DNA from: a bacterium | Lineage (GTDB): Bacteria > CG2-30-53-67 > CG2-30-70-394 | Direction of reading: 5' to 3' | DNA: 16,602 nt | Assembly: GCA_024278555.1 (NCBI GenBank) | Contig: JAJRSX010000150.1 | Span: 1 to 16,602 of the forward strand | Part shown: positions 906 through 16,095 of the stretch, in pieces | Position numbering within the stretch: position 1 is the stretch's first letter | How the letters are laid out: each line of letters begins with the position of its first letter | The notes under the pieces: model-generated | The model's input: only the letters and a program-made list of their open reading frames with translations | What the model was told of the DNA's origin: nothing | The model's database searches: none | Made by a program: the position numbers and the translations under genes

Positions 906-2447
906 ATGTCCCCCCCCCACGCACCCAACAAGTGGCTCGTCGCCGCCCTCGTCTCCACGGGAATCTTCATCGCCCTGTTGGACACGACGATCGTCGACAT
1001 CGTCTTGCCGAAGATGATGTCGAGCCTCGATGCCGACCTGTACGGCGTCCAGTGGGTGGTGATCACCTACTTCCTCGGCTCGGCGATCGCCATGACCGCG
1101 GTGGGGTGGACGGCGGACGTGGTGGGCCACCGTAATACCTATCTCGCGGGGCTGATCCTCTTTATCTGCATGTCGGCGCTCGCCGGGATGGCGCCGACCC
1201 TGGAGGTGATGGTCGCCACCCGCTTCTTCCAGGGAATGGCGGAGGGGATCCTCATCCCGGTCTCCATGGTCATCCTCTTCGACACCTTCCCGGCGGAGGA
1301 GCACGGCATCGCCATGGGGATCTTCGGCCTCTCCGCCTCCTTCGCCCCGGCACTGGGCCCGGCCCTCGGCGGGATCATCACCGAGTACCTGTCGTGGCGC
1401 TGGGTCTTCTACGTCAACGTGCCGGTGGGCATTCTCGACATCGCCCTCGTCTGGCTGCTTCTCACCAACCACCGCGCCGCACACGAGACGCCCCCCTTCG
1501 ACTGGATCGGCTTCCTGCTGCTGGCGGTGGCGGTCTCGGCGCTCATCGTGATCGCCGGCAAGGGGCAGGAGCTTGGCTGGCTCTCCTCCGACACGATCTT
1601 CCACCTGCTCCTGGTGATGGTGGTCTCGGGAGCGGCGGCGGCGGCGTGGTTGGCGCTGGCCAAGAACCCCCTCTTCCCACGCCACATCCTCGGCTCCCGC
1701 CCCTTCCGTCGCGGCCTCTGGGCGATGGCGCTGCTGTCGATCAACGCCTACGGTTTCTTTCTCCTCCTACCGGTCTTTCTCCAGCGGATCCATGGCTACA
1801 CCACCCTCCAGGCGGGGCTGATCCTGCTCCCCGGGGCGCTCCTGTCGGCGGTGGTCACGGTGGTCGCCGGGGCGCTCTCGGACCGGATGAACCCGAAGTG
1901 GATCGCGGCGAGCTGCCTGGTGGTGATGGCGGCGGCGTCGTGGTTCTTTCACGCCGACATGGACACGCCGCACCACGTCCTGGTCCTCGACTACCTCTAC
2001 TGGGGCGCCTTCGTCGGCGCCACCTTCGCGCCGGTGACGATCATCGCCCTCGGCACCCTGGAGGAGCGCGACATTGCCGACGGCTCAACCCTGCTAAACA
2101 TCGTCCGCCTGATCACCGGCTCCATCGGCTCCGCCTACGCCACCACCCTGCTCACCTCCCGCACCGACCGCTTCTACACCGGGCTTGCCGACCGCCTCGA
2201 CTGGGGGGGTGGGATGGAGATCGCCCGGCGCCTCGGCGGGGTCGCCGGCCAAACAGGGCCGTGGTTCGACCCCGACGCCTGGGCGCGGCTGGCTGCCGGT
2301 ACCCAGGGAATGATGCTGCGCCGCGCCTCGGCCTACGCCTTCCACGCCACCTACCAGCACCTCGCCTTCTTCGCGCTCGCCGCAGCGGTCGTAGTAGCCC
2401 TGGTCAAACGCCTACCCCACCGCAGCGGCAAGGTCGCCGTCCACTGA
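906..2447 (+). CDS. emrB: DHA2-family (EmrB/QacA-type) MFS multidrug exporter
   Basis: This is a 513-residue inner-membrane proton-driven drug exporter, the usual length for the 14-helix DHA2 group. Helix 1 carries the DHA2 signature LLDTTIVDIVLPKM (residues about 23-36). Helix 2 and the loop after it give the MFS motif GWTADVVGHRNTY, and the helix 5 region has the antiporter motif LGPALGGIITEYLSWRWVFYVNVP. Hydrophobic segments follow regularly to VVVALVKRL near the C-terminus. With the upstream fusion protein it would form a tripartite pump together with a TolC-like channel encoded elsewhere. The ATG at 906 has no recognisable Shine-Dalgarno sequence and is wedged between a C7 run (899-905) and a C9 run (910-918). 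The C9 run lies in codons 2-5 and could slip. Substrate unknown. Confidence 0.9.
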   Translation: MSPPHAPNKWLVAALVSTGIFIALLDTTIVDIVLPKMMSSLDADLYGVQWVVITYFLGSAIAMTAVGWTADVVGHRNTYLAGLILFICMSALAGMAPTLEVMVATRFFQGMAEGILIPVSMVILFDTFPAEEHGIAMGIFGLSASFAPALGPALGGIITEYLSWRWVFYVNVPVGILDIALVWLLLTNHRAAHETPPFDWIGFLLLAVAVSALIVIAGKGQELGWLSSDTIFHLLLVMVVSGAAAAAWLALAKNPLFPRHILGSRPFRRGLWAMALLSINAYGFFLLLPVFLQRIHGYTTLQAGLILLPGALLSAVVTVVAGALSDRMNPKWIAASCLVVMAAASWFFHADMDTPHHVLVLDYLYWGAFVGATFAPVTIIALGTLEERDIADGSTLLNIVRLITGSIGSAYATTLLTSRTDRFYTGLADRLDWGGGMEIARRLGGVAGQTGPWFDPDAWARLAAGTQGMMLRRASAYAFHATYQHLAFFALAAAVVVALVKRLPHRSGKVAVH

Positions 2448-2480
2448 GCCCACCCCTCATTGCCCCCACCGATTTACCCA

Positions 2481-2503
2481 CCCCCCTCCCGAAGGGAGAG
2501 GGG
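2481..2503. repeat. CCCTCCC-GAA-GGGAGGGG-type hairpin between MFS and RND genes
   Basis: CCCCCCTCCC (2481-2490) pairs with GGGAGAGGGG (2494-2503) around a GAA loop with one mismatch. No T-tract follows, so a canonical intrinsic terminator is not supported. It may be a dispersed repeat or an mRNA-processing or stability hairpin between emrB and the downstream permease gene. Confidence 0.45.
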
Positions 2504-2526
2504 CTGACCGCTGAAAGCTACCCCCC

Positions 2527-4836
2527 ATGACCCGTGCCTACGCCAACGCCGTCATCCGCCTCCGGTGGCTGATCATCCCCGCCACCCTGGTGGTCGTCGC
2601 CTTCGCCGCCTTCGGCATGGGTCGCCTCGGCTTCTCCACCAACTACCGGGTCTTCTTCGGCAAGGACAACCCGCAGCTCCTCGCCTTCGAGGCGATGCAG
2701 AACACCTACACCGCCGATGACAACGTCCTCTTCTGCCTCGCCCCCAAGGACGGCAAGGTCTTCACCCGCGACACCCTGGCGGCGGTGGAGGAGCTGACCC
2801 GCGCGGCGTGGCAGGTGCCGTACTCGAGCCGGGTCGACTCGATCACCAACTTCCAGCACACCTATGCCGACGGCGACGACCTGATCGTCGAGGACCTGGT
2901 GGAGGAGGCGGCGTCGTTCACCGACGCCGACCTGGCACGGGTCAGGGAGGTCGCGATCCACGAGCCGCTCCTGCGCCACCGGCTGATCAACCCGGAGGGG
3001 AGCGTCACCGGGGTCAACGTCACCGTCCTCATGCCCCAGAAGCACCCGCTGGAGGTCCAGGAGGTGACCGCCTTCGTGCGCCAGATGGCGGCCGACTTCC
3101 GCGAACGCCACCCGGAGATCGACGTCCGCCTCACCGGCATGGTCCTGATGAACAACGCCTTCGCCGAGGCGAGCCTGAAGGACATGGAGAGCCTGGTGCC
3201 GCTGATGTACGGGGTGGTCTTCGTCACCATGCTCCTGCTCCTGCGCTCCCTGCAGGGCACCCTGATCACCCTGGTGGTGATCGCCTTCTCCATCCTCAGC
3301 GGCATGGGGCTGGCCGGCTGGATGGGGATCAATCTGACGCCGCCGTCGGCGTCGGCCCCGACCATCATCCTCACCCTGGCGGTGGCAGACTCGATCCACC
3401 TGCTGATCACCATGCTCCACCTGATGCGCACCGCCGGCATGGGGCGCCACGAGGCGATGGCCGAGTCCCTGCGCATCAACATGCAGCCGGTCTTCCTCAC
3501 CTCCCTGACCACGGTGATTGGCTTCCTGTCGATGAACTTCAGCGACGTCCCCCCCTTTCACGACCTGGGCAACATCGTCTCCATGGGGGTGGCGGCGGCG
3601 TGGCTCTACTCGGTCACCTTCCTGCCGGCGGCGGCCGCGGTCCTGCCGATCCGGGTAAAGGTGCACCCCGACGGCCACACGAGCTCCATGGACCACCTCG
3701 CCGAGTGGGTCATCCACCGCCGCCGGCTGCTGCTCTGGGGCGCGGTGCCGGTGGTCCTCGGCCTGGCCGCCTTCATCCCGCGCATCGACCTCAACGACCA
3801 GTTCGTCGAGTACTTCGACGAGTCGGTCCCCTTCCGCGCCGACACCGACTTCACCGTCACCAACCTCACCGGCATCTACCTGATCCAGTACTCCCTGGAG
3901 AGCGGCGAGAGCGCCGGGATCAACGACCCCGCCTATCTCGCCGCGGTAAAGAGGTTCGCCGACTGGTACCGCCGCCAGCCGCGGGTGATCCACGTCAACG
4001 CGATCACCGCGGTGATGGAGCGGCTGAACAAGAACATGCACGGCGACGACCCGGCCTACTACCGGCTGCCCGAGGAGCGCGACCTCGCCGCGCAGTACCT
4101 CCTGCTCTACGAGATGTCCCTACCCTTCGGGCTCGATCTCAACAACCAGATCAACGTCGACAAGTCGGCCACCCGCATGACCGTCACCTTCGAGAACCTC
4201 ACCAGCCGCTCCATGCGCCTCCAGGAGAAGCGCGCCCAGGGGTGGATGAAGGCCAACCTGCCGCCGGCGATGCACACCCTCGGCGCCTCGCCGTCGCTGA
4301 TGTTCTCCCACATCGCGGCGCGCAACGTGCGCTCCATGCTCGGCGGCACCATCGCCGCCCTGGTGCTCATCTCCGGGGTCCTCCTGGTCGCCCTGCGGAG
4401 CTGGAAGATGGGGCTGGTGAGCCTGCTTCCCAACCTGGCGCCGGCGATCATGGGATTCGGCATCTGGTCGATCCTCGTGGGCCAGGTGGGGATGGCGGTG
4501 GCGGTGGTGGTCTCCATGACCCTCGGGATCGTCGTGGACGACACCGTCCACTTCCTCTCCAAGTACCTGCGCGCCCGGCGCGAAAAGGGGTTTGATGCCG
4601 AAGCGGCGGTGCGCTACGCCTTCTCCCACGTGGGCACCGCCCTGTGGGTCACCTCGGTGATCCTCGTGTGCGGCTTCGCGGTGCTGGCCCAGTCCGCCTT
4701 CAAACTCAACGCCTCCATGGGGCTGCTCACCGCCATCGTCATCGTCTTCGCCCTCCTCGCCGACTTCCTCTTCCTGCCGCCACTGCTGATGGCGGTGGAC
4801 CGGGACAAGCGATCCACCACAACAACCACGACCTGA
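2527..4836 (+). CDS. RND-superfamily (MMPL/HAE3-like) permease
   Basis: This 769-residue inner-membrane permease has the two-fold RND layout. TM1 (about residues 12-32) is followed by a periplasmic domain (about 33-220) and a five-helix bundle (about 225-375). TM7 (about 395-415) is followed by a second periplasmic domain (about 416-605) and a final five-helix bundle to the C-terminus. Membrane acidic motifs LAVADSIHLLITM (about 284-296) and GIVVDDTVHFLSKY (about 666-679) sit in equivalent helices and fit proton-relay positions of this family. It is shorter than the roughly 1000-residue AcrB-type pumps and resembles MMPL/HpnN-like lipid or hydrophobe exporters. The LolA-like and beta-barrel genes follow on the same strand, so it probably acts with them. 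The start has no clear ribosome-binding site. The transported compound is unknown. Confidence 0.88.
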   Translation: MTRAYANAVIRLRWLIIPATLVVVAFAAFGMGRLGFSTNYRVFFGKDNPQLLAFEAMQNTYTADDNVLFCLAPKDGKVFTRDTLAAVEELTRAAWQVPYSSRVDSITNFQHTYADGDDLIVEDLVEEAASFTDADLARVREVAIHEPLLRHRLINPEGSVTGVNVTVLMPQKHPLEVQEVTAFVRQMAADFRERHPEIDVRLTGMVLMNNAFAEASLKDMESLVPLMYGVVFVTMLLLLRSLQGTLITLVVIAFSILSGMGLAGWMGINLTPPSASAPTIILTLAVADSIHLLITMLHLMRTAGMGRHEAMAESLRINMQPVFLTSLTTVIGFLSMNFSDVPPFHDLGNIVSMGVAAAWLYSVTFLPAAAAVLPIRVKVHPDGHTSSMDHLAEWVIHRRRLLLWGAVPVVLGLAAFIPRIDLNDQFVEYFDESVPFRADTDFTVTNLTGIYLIQYSLESGESAGINDPAYLAAVKRFADWYRRQPRVIHVNAITAVMERLNKNMHGDDPAYYRLPEERDLAAQYLLLYEMSLPFGLDLNNQINVDKSATRMTVTFENLTSRSMRLQEKRAQGWMKANLPPAMHTLGASPSLMFSHIAARNVRSMLGGTIAALVLISGVLLVALRSWKMGLVSLLPNLAPAIMGFGIWSILVGQVGMAVAVVVSMTLGIVVDDTVHFLSKYLRARREKGFDAEAAVRYAFSHVGTALWVTSVILVCGFAVLAQSAFKLNASMGLLTAIVIVFALLADFLFLPPLLMAVDRDKRSTTTTTT

Positions 4837-4890
4837 CCCAAAAGCGCCAGGACGCAACGACGCCAATAACCGCTGTCGGGGAGACCTCAC

Positions 4891-5676
4891 ATGAAACGGC
4901 TCGTCGCCACCGTGTCCATTGTCCTTCTCTTCCACCCACTCGTCGCCCTCGCCGAGACCCCTGAGGAGCGCGGCCTGGCGATCGCCGTCGAGGCGGACCA
5001 ACGGGACAACGGCTGGGTCGACTCCACCGCCGAGCTCACGATGATCCTGCGCAACCGCCACGGCCAGGAGTCGACCCGCACCATCCGCTCGAAGAGCCTG
5101 GAGGTGGAGAACGACGGCGACAAGCGGCTCTCCATCTTCGACAACCCGCGGGACGTGAAGGGGACGGCGATGCTCACCTTCTCCCACAAGCTGCCACCGG
5201 ACGACCAGTGGCTCTATCTGCCGGCCCTCAAACGGGTGAAGCGCATCTCCTCGCGCAACAAATCGGGCTCCTTCATGGGCTCCGAGTTCTCCTTCGAGGA
5301 CCTCGGCAGCCAGGAGGTGGAGCAGTACACCTACAAATACCTGCGCGACGAGGAGGTCGACGGCCGCCCCTGCTTCGTGATCGAGCGCTACCCGGTGGAC
5401 AAGTACTCCGGCTACAAGCGGCAGGTGGTGTGGATCGACCAGGAGCGCTACCAGCCCCTCAAGGTCGAGTACTACGACCGCAAGAATGCCCACCTCAAGA
5501 CCCTCACCTCCCGCGGCTACCACCAATACCTCGGCCGGTACTGGCGCCCCGACGAGATGGAGATGGTCAACCACCAGAACCACAAATCGACCCTGCTGAA
5601 GTGGAAGAACTACCGCTTCCACATCGGCCTCACCAAACGCGACTTCGACCGCAACTCCCTGAAACGGGCGCGGTAG
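4891..5676 (+). CDS. Periplasmic LolA-like (outer membrane lipoprotein-sorting family) protein
   Basis: This is a 261-residue exported protein. The signal peptide is MKRLVATVSIVLLFHPLVALA, with predicted cleavage after residue 21 (ALA/ETPEE), and there is no lipobox Cys. The mature part has the fold pattern of PF17131-type LolA-like proteins. It contains the strands IRSKSLEVENDGDKRLSIFD, the segments DDQWLYLPALKRVKRI and GSEFSFEDLG, the RQVVWIDQERYQPLKVEYYD block, and a final GLTKRDFD. LolA-fold proteins bind acyl chains in the periplasm. Next to an RND permease, a shuttle role for a lipid or hydrophobic ligand is a reasonable inference, not a demonstrated one. The ATG follows GGGGAG at good spacing, 54 bp after the permease stop. 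A 12-bp direct repeat, ACGCAACGACGC, flanks the gene (4852-4863 and 5687-5698). Confidence 0.87.
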   Translation: MKRLVATVSIVLLFHPLVALAETPEERGLAIAVEADQRDNGWVDSTAELTMILRNRHGQESTRTIRSKSLEVENDGDKRLSIFDNPRDVKGTAMLTFSHKLPPDDQWLYLPALKRVKRISSRNKSGSFMGSEFSFEDLGSQEVEQYTYKYLRDEEVDGRPCFVIERYPVDKYSGYKRQVVWIDQERYQPLKVEYYDRKNAHLKTLTSRGYHQYLGRYWRPDEMEMVNHQNHKSTLLKWKNYRFHIGLTKRDFDRNSLKRAR

Positions 5677-5686
5677 GAAAAGCTCA

Positions 5687-5784
5687 ACGCAACGACGCGA
5701 AGATGCAAAGACGCAAAGGGGGCTTCGCCATCCGCTGTCTGTCAGCTCTTTGCGCCGTGGCGCCTTTGCGTCTTTACGTTGTCT
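5687..5784. repeat. Dispersed inverted repeat overlapping the 5' end of the beta-barrel gene
   Basis: The left arm, ACGCAACGACGCGAAGATGC then AAAGACGCAAAG, runs from about 5687 to 5718. The right arm, CTCTTTGCGCCGTGG then CGCCTTTGCGTCTTTACGTTG, runs from about 5746 to 5781 and is its imperfect reverse complement (AAAGACGCAAAG against CTTTGCGTCTTT is exact). The short-period GAAG/AAAG-ACGC composition matches the other dispersed repeats at 7624-7664, 7909-7938 and 9487-9520. The predicted start and signal-peptide codons of the following gene fall inside it. Confidence 0.65.
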
Positions 5785-6944
5785 TTTTGTTGTGCGCCAC
5801 GACGGCCCACGCCTGGGAGCTCACCGGCTACGTGGCGACAGAGGGGCGCCTCTTCTGGGAGACGGCGGCGTTCGCCCGCCAGGGTAACGAGCAGCTCTCC
5901 CTCGTCTTTCAGCCGGAGCTCTTTCACGAGTGGGACGACGGCCGCCAGCAGGTCGTCTTCACCCCCTTTCTGCGCCTCGACTCCCTTGATAACGAACGCA
6001 CCCACGGCGACATCCGTGAACTCTCCTGGCTGGTCGCCGGAGAGAGCTGGGAGCTGCGGGTCGGGGTGCGCAAGGTCTACTGGGGGGTGACCGAGTCGCA
6101 GCACCTGGTCGACATCCTCAACCAGACCGACCTGATCGAGAACATCGACACCGAGGACAAGCTAGGCCAGCCGATGGTCAACGTGGCGCTCATCCGCGAC
6201 TGGGGGACGATCGACCTCTACTACCTGCCGTACTTCCGCGAGCGCACCTTCCCCGGCCGCCGCGGCCGCCTGCGCGGCCCCCTGGTGGTCGACACCGACC
6301 ACCCGCTCTACGCCGCCGCCAACCGCGAGTACCACCCGGACTTCGCCATCCGCTACAGCCACACCATCGGCCCCTTCGACATCGGCGTCGCCCACTTCAC
6401 CGGCACCGGCCGCGAGCCGACGCTGGTCCCGGTGGTATCCGGCGGCGGCGACACCACCCTGCGGCCGCGCTACGACACCATCGACCAGACCTCCATCGAC
6501 CTCCAGGCGGTGGTCGGTGACTGGCTGTGGAAGGTGGAGGCGATCCGCCGCGCCGGTCAGGGGCGCGCCTTCGTCGCCGCCACCACCGGCTTCGAGTACA
6601 CCTTCGTGGCGATCGGAGAGACCGACATCGACCTCGGACTGGTGGGCGAGTGGCTCTTCGACGATCGCGGCGAGGGGGCCCCCACCCTCTTCGAGGACGA
6701 CCTCTTCGCCGGCGTGCGCCTCACCCTCAACGACCCCCAGTCCACCGACCTCCTCGCCGGGGTGATCTCCGACCTCTCCGGCGACGGCCACCTCGCCTCG
6801 GTAGAGGCCAGCCGCCGTATCGGCGACCGCTACCGGTTGAGCGTCGAGGCACGCCTCTTCCTCAGCCCGCAGGCCGACGACCCGATCGCCTACCCTCTGC
6901 GCCGCGACTCCCTCCTGCAGCTGGAGCTGGCACGGTATTTCTAG
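5703..6944 (+). CDS. Outer-membrane beta-barrel protein linked to the RND/LolA-like genes
   Basis: With the ATG at 5703 the product has 413 residues. Residues 1-37 would be a signal peptide ending ATTAHA, with mature WELTGYVATEGRLFWE. The mature part is made of alternating amphipathic strands separated by Asp/Gly-rich turns and ends in ELARYF. A C-terminal Phe is the usual recognition signal for BAM-assembled barrels. It contains a strongly structured block VGVRKVYWGVTESQHLVDIL followed by NQTDLIENID and KLGQPM. I do not recognise a characterised family; the pairing recalls the DUF1302/LolA-like proteins found near RND permeases. The start is uncertain. In-frame GTG (5757) and TTG (5766) would give shorter signal peptides of 19 and 16 residues, and the ATG lacks a well-placed ribosome-binding site. 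It may provide the outer-membrane exit or entry point for the permease. Confidence 0.8.
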   Translation: MQRRKGGFAIRCLSALCAVAPLRLYVVFLLCATTAHAWELTGYVATEGRLFWETAAFARQGNEQLSLVFQPELFHEWDDGRQQVVFTPFLRLDSLDNERTHGDIRELSWLVAGESWELRVGVRKVYWGVTESQHLVDILNQTDLIENIDTEDKLGQPMVNVALIRDWGTIDLYYLPYFRERTFPGRRGRLRGPLVVDTDHPLYAAANREYHPDFAIRYSHTIGPFDIGVAHFTGTGREPTLVPVVSGGGDTTLRPRYDTIDQTSIDLQAVVGDWLWKVEAIRRAGQGRAFVAATTGFEYTFVAIGETDIDLGLVGEWLFDDRGEGAPTLFEDDLFAGVRLTLNDPQSTDLLAGVISDLSGDGHLASVEASRRIGDRYRLSVEARLFLSPQADDPIAYPLRRDSLLQLELARYF

Positions 6945-15854: not shown

Positions 15855-15921
15855 GGGCTCTTCTCCTCCAAGGTGGGTGGACCCCGACCACGCCGGGGCT
15901 TCATTCGTCTGTACAGGCTCT

Positions 15922-15937
15922 AGCAAGGGGCGTGCCA
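15922..15937 (-). promoter_or_regulatory. Consensus sigma-54 (RpoN) promoter of the porin gene
   Basis: On the minus strand the sequence is TGGCACGCCCCTTGCT, an exact match to TGGCACG-N4-TTGCW. The -24 GG is at 15936-15935 and the -12 GC at 15924-15923. Transcription would begin near 15911, giving a leader of about 57 bases before the porin ATG with its GGAGGAG site. A sigma-70 reading (TTGGCA, 17 bp, TGTACA) overlaps but has a poor -10. Confidence 0.85.
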
Positions 15938-16002: not shown

Positions 16003-16095
16003 GGCAGGAGCGAGCTCGCGATCGGGGCCGCGGGCCCCGCCGGCCCCCCCCATCTCAAGATGGGGCCGGATCGCCGGCGGGAGCCGACTCCTACC
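16003..16095. repeat. REP-doublet (REPIN-like) inverted repeat upstream of the sigma-54 promoter
   Basis: The plus-strand arm GGCAGGAGCGAGCTCGCGAT (from 16003) and the minus-strand arm GGTAGGAGTCGGCTCCCGCC, then GGCGATCCGG (from 16095), share the GGYAGGAG head and a CGCGATC/GCGATCC end. The centre holds another palindrome, CCCCATCTCAAGATGGGG. The heads match the gammaproteobacterial REP type and the design matches 712-794. Confidence 0.6.

Follow-up and report, generated by a model that had tools for sequence, protein, structure and literature searches.

Tandem NtrC-type dyads and a perfect sigma-54 promoter precede a BBP2 porin gene adjacent to amtB, glnB and glnA in an uncultured bacterial lineage

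Organization of the porin-amtB-glnB-glnA locus

The stretch of DNA considered here (the window) comprises the 16,602 nucleotides of contig JAJRSX010000150.1 (assembly GCA_024278555.1), from a bacterium of the CG2-30-53-67 lineage whose genome (G000) amounts to 3.06 Mb in 211 contigs. Its minus strand carries, in series, genes for a predicted outer-membrane porin of the BBP2 family, the ammonium channel AmtB, a PII regulator and glutamine synthetase. These are preceded by a perfect sigma-54 (-24/-12) promoter and, farther upstream, by a tandem pair of dyads of the NtrC type, an arrangement that is suggestive of nitrogen control. The features of this part of the window, from upstream to downstream along the minus strand, are:

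16600-16181, minus: ORF fragment without a Pfam match, followed by a 326-nt intergenic region
16174-16158, minus-strand reading: NtrC-type dyad 1, TGCACGCCCGGTGGGCA, TGC-N11-GCA with one mismatch to TGCAC-N7-GTGCA; centred some 255 bp before the predicted transcript start
16152-16136, minus-strand reading: NtrC-type dyad 2, TGCTTCCTGTTTGGGCA, spaced 22 bp from dyad 1 and centred some 233 bp before the predicted start
16070-16093, minus: REP-like repeat TAGGAGYCGGCTYCNNCCGGCGAT, between the dyads and the promoter
15937-15922, minus: sigma-54 (-24/-12) promoter TGGCACGCCCCTTGCT, perfect
15854-14781, minus: porin, 357 aa, outer-membrane, BBP2 (PF07642; Pfam E 4e-69)
14773-14735, porin-amtB gap: second tandem pair of NtrC-type dyads
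14608-13283, minus: amtB, ammonium channel (TIGR00836; E 1.5e-132)
13218-12880, minus: glnB, gene of a GlnB/GlnK-type PII regulator (PF00543; E 9e-35)
12783-11374, minus: glnA, type I glutamine synthetase (TIGR00653; E 2.9e-203)
11346-11322, minus: intrinsic terminator 3' of glnA, 11 G-C pairs followed by TTTTTGTTTG

The sigma-54 promoter

The promoter agrees with the RpoN consensus at every position (0 mismatches), as the sequence-only reading of this locus had stated, and the window contains no further -24/-12 site with 0 or 1 mismatch. Under a first-order model, 0.0045 occurrences of TGGCACN5TTGCT and 0.014 of TGGCAYN5TTGCW would be expected in the window by chance. The same reading placed the site about 57 bp before the porin ATG (15854). 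This distance holds for the predicted transcript start at about 15911, i.e., 11-12 nt past the GC element, since the site itself ends 67 nt before the ATG.

Across G000, TGGCAYN5TTGCW has 38 exact sites as against a single one for the reversed pattern, which indicates that sigma-54 sites are under selection in this organism. The genome also encodes RpoN itself (TIGR02395, 438 bits, above the cut-off). Further, a second genome of the same genus (G001) displays the same gene order with a perfect site in the same place, the spacer being different and the flanks diverged.

Tandem NtrC-type dyads upstream of the promoter

Promoters of Escherichia coli that depend on NtrC and RpoN have, besides the -24/-12 element, dyads of 17 bp farther upstream, TGCACCAnnnTGGTGCA (PMC8743547), the outer positions of which are TGC-N11-GCA. 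In contrast to the full 17-bp box of these promoters, the dyads upstream of the porin retain only TGC-N11-GCA, in a GC-rich setting and about 230-255 bp upstream. A search of the window with TGCAC-N7-GTGCA at up to three mismatches was uninformative (43 matches versus 68 expected), and the TGC-N11-GCA form was therefore adopted along with controls.

In its tandem form this pattern occurs at two places in G000, both of them in this window, where 0.28 would be expected genome-wide. G001 has it at a single place, before its porin, as two dyads of identical 22-bp spacing that lie about 44 bp closer to the promoter than in G000. With at most one mismatch allowed, the REP-like repeat is present about 29 times in G000, and none was found in G001. 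Among 30 perfect sigma-54 promoters of G000 examined, the one upstream of the porin has the closest NtrC-type dyad, and a dyad is present at 1 of the 29 other sigma-54 sites.

Comparable dyads recur in two sets of promoters. In the first, assembled by hand from sigma-54 promoters of amtB, PII and porin clusters, one or more dyads lie in the 300 bp preceding 11 of 16 promoters, versus 1.6 in shuffles; the dyads total 18 versus 1.8, a level reached by none of 1,000 shuffles, and other gap lengths between 4 and 18 gave at most 5 dyads. The second set, which consists mostly of new loci, with L195 repeating one region of the first, has dyads in 9 of 16 promoters against 1.13 expected, and no other gap length gave more than 3. 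GGCAGGG repeats in the promoter alignment were considered as a separate element and dropped, as they overlap the dyads.

With regard to the protein that might occupy the dyads, the best NtrC-like protein of G000, encoded on contig C192, has the recognition helix GINRNTLRKK in common with the best NtrC-like proteins of three other genomes (G004, G006 and G039), and the next-best paralogue differs from it in this helix. The tandem dyads, the retention of the site in G001, the same arrangement in other phyla (see below) and the fact that RpoN and NtrC-like proteins are encoded together give good support to the proposal that the porin operon is under sigma-54 and NtrC-type nitrogen control. The dyads, which had not been recognized earlier, point to NtrC control in particular, with an NtrC-type protein as their presumed ligand.

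Predicted extent of the transcript

The gaps between successive genes on the minus strand are 172 nt (porin-amtB), 64 nt (amtB-glnB) and 96 nt (glnB-glnA). Neither strand yielded a sigma-70-like promoter between 11000 and 16602, and the sole minus-strand terminator found is the one after glnA, none lying between the porin, amtB, glnB and glnA genes. Within the porin-amtB gap, the GG-N10-GC candidate that fits best does so at just 8 of 11 consensus positions. Two further statements of the sequence-only reading stand, namely that amtB follows the porin on the same strand and that the gap between them has no good promoter. In view of these gap lengths and the lack of an intervening sigma-70-like promoter or minus-strand terminator, read-through from the porin promoter into amtB is plausible.

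There may also be two transcription units, with the porin expressed from the sigma-54 promoter and amtB-glnB-glnA from a promoter of its own served by the dyads in the gap. The second tandem pair speaks for such an arrangement and suggests that amtB may be subject to additional control, which the earlier reading had not seen. However, no good -24/-12 site stands beside this pair in G000, the gap being limited to the above 8/11 candidate, and both a dyad and a good -24/-12 site are missing from the equivalent gap of G001. Enhancer-binding proteins are also able to act from a distance. We accordingly regard separate units as rather unlikely and favor a single operon that begins with the porin gene.

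The porin and its relatives

The porin aligns with the BBP2 profile over its full length (positions 2-339 of 339; 233.9 bits, gathering score 26.2), and its AlphaFold2 model is a confident β-barrel (pLDDT 90.1), in keeping with its prediction as an outer-membrane β-barrel. No solved structure matches it by sequence. The fold matches of the model are OprP/OprO, DcaP and general porins (Z 26.5 for OprP and 24.1 for DcaP), and OprP/OprO and DcaP share the barrel fold with it at just 10-15% identity. Unlike OprP, which uses an arginine ladder for phosphate, the porin has few basic residues (5.1%), and its acidic make-up would suit a cation channel. Net charge was nevertheless rejected as an indicator of ammonium selectivity, as BBP2 porins unlinked to amtB are equally acidic.

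Three described systems offer parallels. Ammonium limitation strongly induces a BBP2-domain porin of Kuenenia stuttgartiensis, KSMBR1_3177, which in the suggestion of the authors admits more ammonium (PMC7438415). It is likened to the present porin by the shared Pfam domain rather than by sequence comparison and is not described as a neighbor of amtB or as controlled by sigma-54 and NtrC. In Herbaspirillum seropedicae, the nlmA-glnK-amtB operon is NtrC-dependent and nitrogen-limited cells have NlmA in their membranes (PMC3023670). Here the likeness is one of gene order, with an envelope-protein gene ahead of the PII and amtB genes, and of the NtrC control presumed for the present cluster; the Herbaspirillum operon lacks the glnA that is included in the present cluster. 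Finally, FmdC of Methylophilus methylotrophus, as it is cited in PMC5877670, is an outer-membrane porin linked to nitrogen compounds, and its resemblance lies in this description.

Association of BBP2 porins with amtB across bacteria

The BBP2 family model, the building of which did not draw on linked porins, was searched in 386 genomes spread over the domain. BBP2 is present in 62 of these, and among the 60 examined for neighbors an amtB or PII gene lies within 6 kb of the porin in 24 and within 500 bp in 21; outside the phylum of the present bacterium the corresponding figure is 20 of 56 genomes. Chance linkage would be about 1%, assuming two amt genes in 4 Mb. The survey of recurrence beside amtB that the sequence-only reading had proposed thus has a positive outcome for amtB or PII genes, and the same sigma-54 arrangement is seen in other phyla. 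Within the phylum itself, clear BBP2 porins were found in four of eight genomes, a single one in each, and every one of them is in an amtB-PII cluster.

A profile of linked porins found the link in named genomes that include Nitrospirae, Nitrospinota, Elusimicrobia, Ignavibacteriae, Deltaproteobacteria, Krumholzibacteriia and Mariprofundus, a list that is biased towards the link by the origin of the profile. Mariprofundus sp. KV, a relative in culture, has the cluster at L163. A search of genome contigs gave no match with the single porin sequence and 38 loci with the porin alignment. In a quick tree the linked porins are clustered yet scattered over the family, requiring 12 label changes versus 22.3 in shuffles, and the idea that they form one clade was rejected. 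Our literature search, of partial coverage, found no paper describing a BBP2-amtB-PII association.

Two side observations concern these families. In Latescibacterota, Gemmatimonadetes and related genomes (L145, L150, L151, L156, L199 and L200), BBP2 porin genes stand in tandem in groups of two or three that are not near amtB, some with a near-consensus sigma-54 site between copies. An AmtB search of viral contigs returned amt genes at 29-49% identity and was not used.

The main rival as to the cargo of the porin is organic nitrogen: the porin would be nitrogen-controlled and admit urea, short amides or amino acids that yield ammonium, its adjacency to amtB reflecting shared regulation only. 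The fold matches, being small-solute porins of varied cargo, are compatible with this. However, the recurrent same-strand neighbors found at BBP2 porins are amtB, PII and sometimes glnA genes (others were not counted systematically), and the Kuenenia porin responds to ammonium limitation itself. The neighboring genes point to ammonium rather than organic nitrogen, and we consider the latter a distinctly unlikely cargo. The proposal of the sequence-only reading that the porin is an entry channel for a nitrogen source is in this way supported by the genomic association and by the Kuenenia porin; that the substrate which passes through the porin is ammonium is what we infer from both.

Other sigma-54 sites of the genome

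Of the 30 perfect sites examined in G000, six are followed by genes for proteins with a PEP-CTERM-like tail and some others by genes for exported cytochrome-like proteins or by motility genes, the names of the downstream genes having been assigned by eye. Perfect sites before PEP-CTERM or other exported proteins were seen at L004, L010, L011, L021, L024, L027 and further loci. As many sites of this genome are of that kind, a perfect -24/-12 site alone is insufficient to indicate nitrogen control. The attribution to RpoN and NtrC in the sequence-only reading is thus upheld by the dyads and the comparative evidence, and not by the site on its own.

Seven of these 30 sites have an upstream palindrome, TCTCA-N3-TGAGA, perhaps a candidate site of the PEP-CTERM regulator PrsR (described in PMC1569441). 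It is absent from the upstream region of the porin, which also lacks a VPEP tail and would thus fall outside the PEP-CTERM (PrsR) sigma-54 regulon. That the porin site serves PrsR or another of the approximately 26 NtrC-like activators encoded in G000, in response to a signal other than nitrogen, would accord with the number of such proteins and of perfect sites before exported proteins; however, the missing palindrome, the NtrC-type dyad of the porin promoter, the closest among the 30 examined, and the restriction of the tandem dyad to the porin-amtB-glnB-glnA operon make it very unlikely.

G000 has further amt genes at C24:16645-17808 (L170) and C158:5246-6379 (L182), the former with a sigma-54 site of one mismatch, the 300 bp upstream of which contain no NtrC-type dyad. 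Elsewhere in the window, the plus strand at 906-6944 encodes in series an MFS transporter, an MMPL/RND-type transporter, a protein for outer-membrane lipoprotein sorting that resembles LolA, and an ORF that Pfam does not match. This cluster is export-like and has no relation to the porin-amtB finding.

A proposed outer-membrane component of ammonium uptake

The reading that we favor, with a probability of roughly 0.7, is that porin-amtB-glnB-glnA forms an NtrC/sigma-54 operon in which the porin raises the supply of ammonium to AmtB across the outer membrane. Under scarcity of fixed nitrogen, the tandem dyads would be bound by an activator of the NtrC type, which would from there open the RpoN polymerase held at the -24/-12 site. 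The resulting transcript would begin with the BBP2 porin and probably continue through amtB and glnB to the terminator after glnA, so as to yield in order the porin, the AmtB channel, the PII regulator and glutamine synthetase. By raising the permeability of the outer membrane to ammonium, the porin may keep AmtB and GlnA from being starved by that membrane.

Several observations weigh against this reading. The 22-bp spacing of the dyads was picked after the porin promoters had been seen, and the independent evidence is therefore their rarity and the second copy. At about 230-255 bp, the dyads are more remote from the promoter than NtrC sites usually are. The C192 protein scores 506 bits, below the family cut-off of 558.6, which makes its naming as NtrC uncertain; the best NtrC matches fall below this cut-off in all six genomes searched. 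As for the porin, at least half of the BBP2 family lacks an amtB neighbor, linked and unlinked members are not told apart by net charge, and the other four genomes of the phylum have amtB and NtrC-type amtB-glnB clusters with no clear BBP2 porin.

Ammonium uptake is usually described for the inner membrane only. The presence of BBP2 porins beside amtB and PII genes in unrelated phyla, several with the same NtrC-type control, suggests that supply across the outer membrane is regulated too. This provides a testable function for a Pfam family named merely as a putative porin, and the dyads offer a means of distinguishing nitrogen control among the sigma-54 regulons of an uncultured lineage. More tentatively, a large part of the BBP2 family might constitute a dedicated outer-membrane channel for ammonium supply, acting with AmtB and PII and governed by NtrC/sigma-54 in many phyla, a possibility worth entertaining even if we would not presume it. 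If true, ammonium uptake in bacteria with BBP2 and AmtB would be a two-membrane system.
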